Of a DNA stretch of 64,000 nucleotides, positions 11,067-13,385 are shown piece by piece; position 1 is the first letter of the stretch; the number at the start of each line of letters is the position of its first letter. Source of the DNA: Clostridium mediterraneense (GTDB lineage Bacteria > Bacillota > Clostridia > Clostridiales > Clostridiaceae); assembly GCF_900091705.1 (NCBI RefSeq), contig NZ_LT594785.1, positions 1,468,858 through 1,532,857 on the forward strand, in the 5' to 3' direction. Below the pieces are notes generated by a model, which was given only the letters and a program-made list of their open reading frames with translations, made no database searches and was not told the DNA's origin. A program made the translations under genes and the position numbers.

Positions 11067-11085
11067 GTATCTACCTATCTTTTTA
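11057..11085. terminator. Bidirectional terminator (small membrane protein / gatD)
   Basis: AAAAAGATAGGTA (11057-11069) with TACCTATCTTTTT around a 2-base centre. It overlaps the end of both convergent genes. Confidence 0.75.
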
Positions 11086-11814
11086 TTTTTTTTCAGCTAA
11101 ATTTATTATATATTCTTTAGCTTTTAATTCTAGAGTATCATCTAAAGGTTCTAATTCTATATCCTTATTATATTTCTTATTTAAAGCAAGTGTTAGTAAT
11201 CTATCAGCAAGCTCTGGATTCTTAGAAAGTAAAGAACCATGGAAGTATGTACCTATAGTATTTTTATAGATACATCCTTCAAATCCATCTTTACCATTAT
11301 TCCCGAAACCTGAAATACATTTACCAAGTGGTTGTAATCCTTCTCCTAGGAATGTTCTTCCTGAATGATTTTCAAATCCAACATATATTTGATTTAAATA
11401 TTCATTAAATATAACAGTATTACCTATAAAACGAGTATCACCTGCTTCGGTATAGATATCTAAAATTTTAAGTCCTTCTAGCTTTTCACCATCTGGAGTA
11501 GTATAATAATTACCAAGTAATTGATAGCCACCACATATAGCAAGTAAAACTTTTTCCTCTTCTATATAATCTTTTATTGAATCTCTTTTTAATGCTTTTA
11601 AGTCATCTGAAACTATAGATTGTTCGTAATCTTGTCCACCACCAAAGAATACAATATCATAATCATCTTTATTAAATTTATCATTTAATGACACATTTAT
11701 TATATTAACATTTATTCCTCTTGCTTCAGCTCTATATTTAAGTATTAATATATTCCCCATATCTCCATATACATTTAATAGATCAGGGTAGAGATGACAT
11801 ATATTAAGTTCCAT
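11083..11814 (-). CDS. gatD: Lipid II isoglutaminyl synthase, glutaminase subunit GatD
   Basis: Predicted to release ammonia from glutamine for MurT, which amidates the D-Glu of the lipid II stem peptide at the cytoplasmic face. The 243 residues show a CobB/CobQ-type amidotransferase fold: NICHLYPDLLNVYGDMGN at the N terminus, VFFGGGQDYEQ near residue 56, the nucleophile elbow LLAICGGYQLLG with Cys near residue 94, and the histidine in TYFHGSLLSKNPELADRLL near residue 190. It follows murT by 19 bases with AAGGTG before its ATG. The pairing with murT makes the role firm. Confidence 0.94.
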   Translation of the reverse strand: MELNICHLYPDLLNVYGDMGNILILKYRAEARGINVNIINVSLNDKFNKDDYDIVFFGGGQDYEQSIVSDDLKALKRDSIKDYIEEEKVLLAICGGYQLLGNYYTTPDGEKLEGLKILDIYTEAGDTRFIGNTVIFNEYLNQIYVGFENHSGRTFLGEGLQPLGKCISGFGNNGKDGFEGCIYKNTIGTYFHGSLLSKNPELADRLLTLALNKKYNKDIELEPLDDTLELKAKEYIINLAEKK

Positions 11815-11833: not shown

Positions 11834-13180
11834 CTACCAAAGTTTTTCTATATATCCTTTAGAATGAAGATATTTTCTAAAATCAATCATAGCTGTATAT
11901 GTTGCTAGAACATATACTTTATTTTCTTTACAGTTTTCAATATCATTGGTTAATTTTTCATATTCTTCAGATATAACAAATTTCTTTGGATCCATACCAG
12001 CTATTTTTAATCTTATAGCCATATCATATCTTCTAACTCCAGAAACAAAAATTTCTTTCATTTCCATTTTACTTAATTTTTCAAAATCAACATCCCAAAG
12101 CCATGAAACATCTCTTCCATCAGCATATTTATCATTAACAAGAAATGCAGCTGCAAATGAGCCAGAGTTTAAGCATAAAGTATCTAAAGCTTGATTATAT
12201 CCAGCTGGATTTTTAACAAGAATTATCTTTACATCTTTTCCATTAATATTAATGGTTTCTTGACGTCCAAAACTTGAGCTTTGTTTTGTAAATGAATTTT
12301 CTATTATAATATCATTTATATTAAATTCTTTTGCAATTCCATAAGCACAAAGAGCATTATATATATTATAAACTCCTGATTGAGTTACTGTAAAAATTGA
12401 ATTGTTAAATTTCACTTTAGATCCTTCTGGTGTAAGCTCTAATATTTCATTCATTGCATAATCAATATGAGCTCTTTTAAATCCACAATTAGGGCAATAG
12501 AAATCTCCTAAATGATTATAAGTTATAAAATTATATTCATATGCTGACTTACAGAACTTACAGAACTTAGCATCTGCATTAACATCAATTTTCTTATCTT
12601 TATTTGGTGATTCATTAAATCCATAGTATTTAACTGGATTTTTTACTTTTAAATCTCCAAGTAATGATTCATCACCATTTAATAGAAGAGTTGTATTTGG
12701 AACTTTATGTACTCCCTCTAATATTTTATTAAGAGTTGTATAAACTTCACCATATCTGTCTAATTGATCTCTAAATAAATTTGTTATTGTTATTATCTCT
12801 GGCTTTATATGTTCAGTTATAAATTTAACATTAGCTTCATCAACTTCTATAACTGCATATTTTTGTTTATTATCAAAAAATCTATAATTATCAATAAATG
12901 TTCCAACAATTCCTGTATACATATTTGCACCAGTATTATTAGTAATAACATTTAATTTATTTTCTTTTAAAATATTATAGATCATTGAGGTAGTTGTTGT
13001 TTTACCATTTGTACCTGTAACAAGAATTACTTTATAATTTTTAGAAACTTTTTTTAATATATTTTTATCTAATTTTAAAGCAACCTTTCCAGGAAAACTA
13101 CTTCCACCTTTAAACAAAGTTTGAGAAAGACTCTTTGTTAACTTTGTTATTATTATTGTTAAAAAAGATTTAATACCTAT
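11834..13180 (-). CDS. murT: Lipid II isoglutaminyl synthase, MurT subunit (probable AUA start)
   Basis: A Mur-ligase-like ATPase that, with GatD, converts the D-isoglutamate of lipid II to D-isoglutamine. Visible are the P-loop VTGTNGKTTTTSM, the MurT-specific four-cysteine zinc ribbon (CKFCKSAYEYN then CPNCGFKR, about residues 205-240 from the start used here), NPAGYNQALDT and the C-terminal DUF1727 region. The first canonical in-frame start is TTG 13117, with no ribosome binding site, and a protein from there would lack the usual N-terminal helix. The open frame continues upstream as GIKSFLTIIITKLTKSLSQT, and AAGGTGG (13190-13196) lies 9 bases before an in-frame ATA at 13180. I therefore place the start at ATA, giving 448 residues; the start is inference. 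Confidence 0.82.
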   Translation of the reverse strand: MGIKSFLTIIITKLTKSLSQTLFKGGSSFPGKVALKLDKNILKKVSKNYKVILVTGTNGKTTTTSMIYNILKENKLNVITNNTGANMYTGIVGTFIDNYRFFDNKQKYAVIEVDEANVKFITEHIKPEIITITNLFRDQLDRYGEVYTTLNKILEGVHKVPNTTLLLNGDESLLGDLKVKNPVKYYGFNESPNKDKKIDVNADAKFCKFCKSAYEYNFITYNHLGDFYCPNCGFKRAHIDYAMNEILELTPEGSKVKFNNSIFTVTQSGVYNIYNALCAYGIAKEFNINDIIIENSFTKQSSSFGRQETININGKDVKIILVKNPAGYNQALDTLCLNSGSFAAAFLVNDKYADGRDVSWLWDVDFEKLSKMEMKEIFVSGVRRYDMAIRLKIAGMDPKKFVISEEYEKLTNDIENCKENKVYVLATYTAMIDFRKYLHSKGYIEKLW

Positions 13181-13385
13181 TTTAAAACACCACCTTATAT
13201 CATTTGAGTTACTTAAATTATTAACAAATACTAATAAAAATAGTCAATGAAACAATATTTATAGTATAGCATAAAGATATTAAATTACCAATATATTAAT
13301 CCTATAGACTAATAAGTATAAATTTGGTAATATATACACATAATAAAAAAATATCAAAATTTAAGTTAGCTTTAGGGGGAAAAGT

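Follow-up and report, generated by a model that had tools for sequence, protein, structure and literature searches.

The murT-gatD locus and the start of murT

The window, by which we mean the whole 64,000-nucleotide stretch of Clostridium mediterraneense DNA analyzed here, carries on its minus strand an operon containing murT and gatD: murT (11834..13180, 448 aa counted from an ATA codon) encodes the ATPase subunit of lipid II isoglutaminyl synthase, and gatD (11083..11814), located 19 nt downstream of murT, encodes the glutamine amidotransferase partner subunit. Both genes are essential in Staphylococcus aureus (PMC3266927). The murT product contains both the Mur ligase central domain (Pfam Mur_ligase_M, 9.8e-18) and the MurT C-terminal domain (MurT_C, 4.4e-40), and matches MurT chains of solved structures (PDB 6fqb, 2.5e-111; 6gs2/7q8e, about 1e-78); the gatD product matches GATase_3 (1.8e-45), and its gene begins at an ATG served by a Shine-Dalgarno (SD) sequence. 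At the aligned start column of gatD in 134 relatives, we find ATG in 94, TTG in 10 and ATT in 1, with the remainder mostly alignment offsets.

The beginning of murT is less conventional. Its reading frame is open on the minus strand from 13243 to 11834, and the only canonical start codon in that frame upstream of the conserved core is a TTG (13115..13117); from the upstream stop to this TTG there is no ATG, GTG or TTG. A sequence-only reading of the window had observed that the frame stays open above a TTG lacking a ribosome binding site, and indeed the SD/anti-SD energy at TTG 13117 is just -2.6 kcal/mol. That reading had instead proposed initiation at the ATA codon at 13178..13180, pointing to AAGGTGG (13196-13190) nine bases away with no canonical start in between, and the coordinates check out. 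The SD does lie where it had been placed, but is longer than was claimed: the full element, TAAGGTGGTG (13188..13197, minus strand), has a single mismatch to UAAGGAGGUG, the full complement of the anti-SD, pairs with the 16S 3' end at -10.6 kcal/mol, and ends 7 nt before the ATA, from which it is separated by the spacer TTTTAAA (13181..13187). Corresponding spacers in relatives are mostly 6 nt long, with 7 nt in several lineages. Two GTG triplets fall within TAAGGTGGTG, but because of the extra T in the 7-nt spacer the SD's GTG is out of the murT frame in the window genome, as is the other triplet.

Could MurT simply be shorter in the window genome, and begin at TTG 13117? The proposal has in its favor that this TTG is the first canonical codon of the frame. 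However, besides having no SD, it would delete the conserved N-terminal helix: the 21 codons from ATA to TTG, which encode GIKSFLTIIITKLTKSLSQT after the initiator as the sequence-only reading had it, specify a protein segment that is conserved throughout the family, and most homologues have no start at the corresponding column. Solved MurT structures likewise match the upstream segment from chain residue 4, and since it is query residue 6 to which this residue of the S. aureus chains (6gs2/7q8e) aligns, the segment between ATA and TTG is part of a normal MurT. We therefore assign a TTG start next to no probability.

Conservation of the start codon across Clostridiaceae

We compared the murT 5' ends of the window genome and of other Clostridiaceae; the counts below cover 156 genomes in 38 genera, with one genome whose frame is broken near the start (G136) and one genus (g31, considered separately below) left out. 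The codon aligned to ATA 13180 is ATT in 122 genomes, ATA in 32 and ATC in 2 (collectively ATH), and is never ATG, while the codons flanking this column vary. The alternative offered by the sequence-only reading, namely that a sequencing or assembly error had turned a true ATG into ATA, would need only a single base change, but is refuted by this column: with ATT, ATA or ATC in 156 of 156 homologues from independent assemblies, and ATG in none, a one-base assembly error is excluded, and we regard the probability left to it as vanishingly small. The same reading's main proposal, AUA initiation of murT, is on the contrary strongly supported, both by this column and by the lack of any canonical alternative in the window genome.

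The distribution of the trait has a clear boundary. Ruminiclostridium, Acetivibrio and other distant clostridia have ATG at the ATH column in a gap-free alignment, and very distant homologues in g40 (26-27% identity) also have ATG; in the sister family we found one murT, whose candidate starts are only TTG or ATG. Within Clostridiaceae, g31 (L249, L250 and L251, with genomes of 1.5-1.7 Mb) is the sole genus with clear murT homologues (48-49% identity) starting at ATG, which lies two codons further downstream than the ATH column, and for this reason the ATH start cannot be indispensable in the family. Among the three ATH codons, ATT is favored over its share of internal isoleucine codons in the same genes (ATT/ATA/ATC, 783/803/163; p = 6e-15 for the difference in the mix, uncorrected for kinship).

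A few genomes have irregular murT genes. In L190 (G136) a break interrupts the frame close to its 5' end, next to a T homopolymer, possibly through a sequencing error, while the closely related L161 has an unbroken frame. The murT of G146, a genome of good quality apart from this and assembled as a single contig, is split between two reading frames (G146:C1:2579922-2581264). No murT match was found in a genome (G001, about 96% complete) of the same genus as the window, which points to either a lost gene or a gap in the assembly. Among named species of the window's genus, the nearest is Clostridium tarantellae.

An in-frame GTG upstream of the ATH codon

The most serious competitor to the ATH codon is a GTG three codons upstream, which forms the 3' end of the SD; in 124 of the 156 genomes it is in frame, with no stop before the ATH codon. 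It could be proposed that this GTG is the true start throughout the family, and that it is masked in the window by the extra spacer T, itself either an error or a frameshift; the GTG would also be the choice of gene finders. In 32 genomes from 12 genera, however, it is unusable, due to a TGA or TAA before the ATH codon, a 7-nt spacer, or some other displacement from the frame. In 26 of these genomes, from 11 genera and with the window included, there is no ATG, GTG or TTG in the stretch that runs from the upstream stop through codon +9; a usable canonical start with an SD is thus missing from the window's murT and from that of 25 other genomes. The state of the GTG changes 17 times on a quick tree built from the remaining sequence, an approximate number given that the tree is short. 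Repeated loss of a sole start codon with no canonical replacement is implausible, and the ATH codon would therefore already have to work where the GTG was lost.

Substitution patterns between the two codons bear on the same question. In close pairs, the codons from GTG to ATH show 10 synonymous and 29 non-synonymous differences, compared with 233 and 211 downstream (p = 0.0014), and in genomes with no usable GTG the same codons show 0 and 13, as would be expected if no amino-acid constraint acted on them. Mismatches between GTG and ATH are nevertheless fewer than further upstream and lean toward third positions. This would fit some coding in the interval and is a point in favor of a GTG start, although the synonymous and non-synonymous counts argue against such coding. 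Against such a start it also counts that the GTG sits within the SD, leaving no SD to serve it, that the same in-frame GTG occurs in infC (see below), and that the invariance of the ATH codon would go unexplained. Taking these observations together, we judge a family-wide GTG start to be very unlikely. We also considered a prfB-like +1 frameshift from GTG TTT TAA in the window genome, and rejected it, because in other lineages the in-frame stop occurs without any offset of the frame.

A milder variant would have both codons used in GTG-compatible species, yielding MurT forms 3 residues apart, with the ATH codon alone used in the window genome and others like it. The retention of the in-frame GTG in most species, and the slow change of its surroundings, speak for dual use. 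However, the GTG belongs to the SD and persists also in genomes where a stop codon comes after it (e.g., GGTGGTGTGAAAAATT), and for that reason its conservation requires no start function. Dual initiation accordingly keeps only a slim chance, and it is initiation at the ATH codon that we consider in what follows, with ATA 13180 strongly supported by comparison of sequences as the start of murT in the window.

Strength and specificity of the initiation signal

The weak start codon of murT goes together with a strong SD: the median SD energy across the 156 ATH-start homologues is -11.9 kcal/mol, as compared with -7.4 kcal/mol for 19 ATG-start murT outgroups and -9.8 kcal/mol for 56 long open reading frames (ORFs) of the window. 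Among those 56 ORFs, murT alone has no canonical start near its SD; the other ORF flagged in the window, at ATA 46600, proved to have an ordinary ATG (46612) after GGGAG. Extending the search to the whole of the same genome by sequence pattern (AAGGNGGTG-N5-8-ATH) rather than by a full survey of starts, we obtained 15 sites, of which only murT opens a long frame with no canonical start.

At the murT start region itself, we detected neither an Rfam element nor a stable structure (the folding z-score of +1.2 indicates folding weaker than that of shuffled sequences), as would fit an open start site. Upstream of murT, matches to promoters did not exceed chance.

The parallel with infC

The gene for initiation factor IF3, infC, is the classic gene with an AUU start. 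In all 30 of the clostridial infC copies that we compared, GGAGGTG is followed after 6-7 nt by ATT, ATA or ATC. The infC gene of the window genome reads GGAGGTGAAAAAAATT, and likewise has an in-frame GTG; its ATT start (L122 1473-1520) is preceded by GGAGGTGAAAAA, with the GTG three codons upstream. This GTG would mislead annotation just as its counterpart would in relatives' murT. The comparison with infC drawn in the sequence-only reading is thus an apt one, since infC in these clostridia is laid out in the same way, and the site found at murT in Clostridiaceae is, judged by its layout, of the infC type.

Many Clostridiaceae have two IF3-like genes (three in one genome): examples are G099, G101, G105, G111, G112 and G125, along with G129, G130, G132, G155 and G183, the last with one IF3-like copy reported to contain an internal TAA. 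A second IF3 could matter for the control of non-canonical starts.

Proposed mechanism and implications

We propose that murT is translated from AUA 13180, with initiator fMet-tRNA accepted at a near-cognate codon. The extended SD (UAAGGUGGUG, 7-nt spacer) would position the 30S subunit on the AUA, as at the AUU, AUA or AUC of infC, and IF3, because it destabilizes initiation complexes at such codons, would hold MurT yield low and make it vary with IF3 activity; gatD, the partner gene that follows, has an ATG start. This account as a whole, namely fMet initiation at the AUA or AUU of murT, with an extended SD compensating for the codon and an output that would be low and probably sensitive to IF3, appears to us highly probable. 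Methionine as the first residue of MurT would follow by analogy with known starts of this kind, from which we also infer a reduced yield, and one that is probably IF3-sensitive.

The conservation of the ATH start suggests that translation of this cell-wall gene is being throttled deliberately, as is known for the IF3 gene itself. The benefit would presumably be that MurT is kept limiting or is tied to translation capacity: of the two subunits of MurT-GatD, MurT may be the limiting one, or lipid II amidation may follow the capacity for translation. More tentatively, and by analogy with infC, lipid II amidation might be under IF3 control across Clostridiaceae through the infC-type signal of murT, a possibility that we raise while rating it somewhat doubtful. 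If it were true, MurT output would follow the level of IF3 or the cell's initiation capacity, thus linking the modification of cell-wall precursors to translation and growth state.

To our knowledge, very few bacterial genes are known with a non-canonical start that has been kept over long evolution, and murT would appear to be a new and unusually well conserved case in this small class; our search of the open-access literature (closed-access papers were not covered) returned no earlier report of a murT with a non-canonical start. A metabolic enzyme with an AUU or AUA start in nearly a whole family would extend the class beyond regulators and IF3, and the reason for keeping such starts would become directly testable. 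There is also a practical consequence: because gene finders, so far as we are aware, accept only ATG, GTG and TTG, the murT starts of Clostridiaceae in databases are probably mis-annotated, being either three residues too long or truncated.

Comparison with known non-canonical starts

Of the known cases, infC resembles murT at the level of the signal: both have a near-cognate AUH codon, preceded at a distance of 6-7 nt by an extended SD whose last bases are GGUG. The two differ in that murT encodes a cell-wall enzyme, so that any effect of IF3 would be cross-regulation as opposed to feedback, and in the SD itself: in the murT of most relatives, U or C (AAGGTGGTG/AAGGCGGTG) takes the place of the central A of GGAGG, a conserved departure from perfect pairing, while infC keeps GGAGGTG. 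IF3 makes initiation at non-canonical codons less stable, which is how infC comes to be autoregulated (PMC5472188).

A second instructive case is Streptomyces sigR, which has an IF3-repressed GTC start with a conserved AGGAGGTG as its SD and was misannotated to an upstream codon (PMC5472188). Like murT, it has a start codon that is non-canonical yet conserved, together with a long SD, and its annotation had wrongly been placed at a nearby upstream canonical codon; unlike murT, it involves another codon, another gene and another phylum, and its repression by IF3 was established experimentally, where that of murT is proposed by analogy. Closer in phylogeny are three genes of S. aureus, infC (AUA), cvfC1 (AUU) and ccpN (AUA), whose starts have been mapped and which have extended SDs; in reporters, cvfC1 and ccpN yield roughly 10-30% of the output of AUG, the upper value of 30% being reached by ccpN in rich medium (PMC13009471). 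The parallel of ccpN and cvfC1 with murT lies in conserved AUA or AUU codons and extended SDs within Firmicutes (PMC13009471). However, the products of these two genes are a regulator and a small protein, and their starts come from ribosome profiling and their yields from measurement, whereas the murT start is read from sequence. AUU has furthermore served as a working start codon in experiments with C. butyricum and C. sporogenes (PMC11040787).

Finally, the murT-gatD systems of S. aureus (PMC3266927) and of other clostridia share both operon and enzyme with those of Clostridiaceae, and the difference lies in the start: the codon at the aligned column is ATG in the murT of Ruminiclostridium and Acetivibrio, and ATT, ATA or ATC instead in that of Clostridiaceae.
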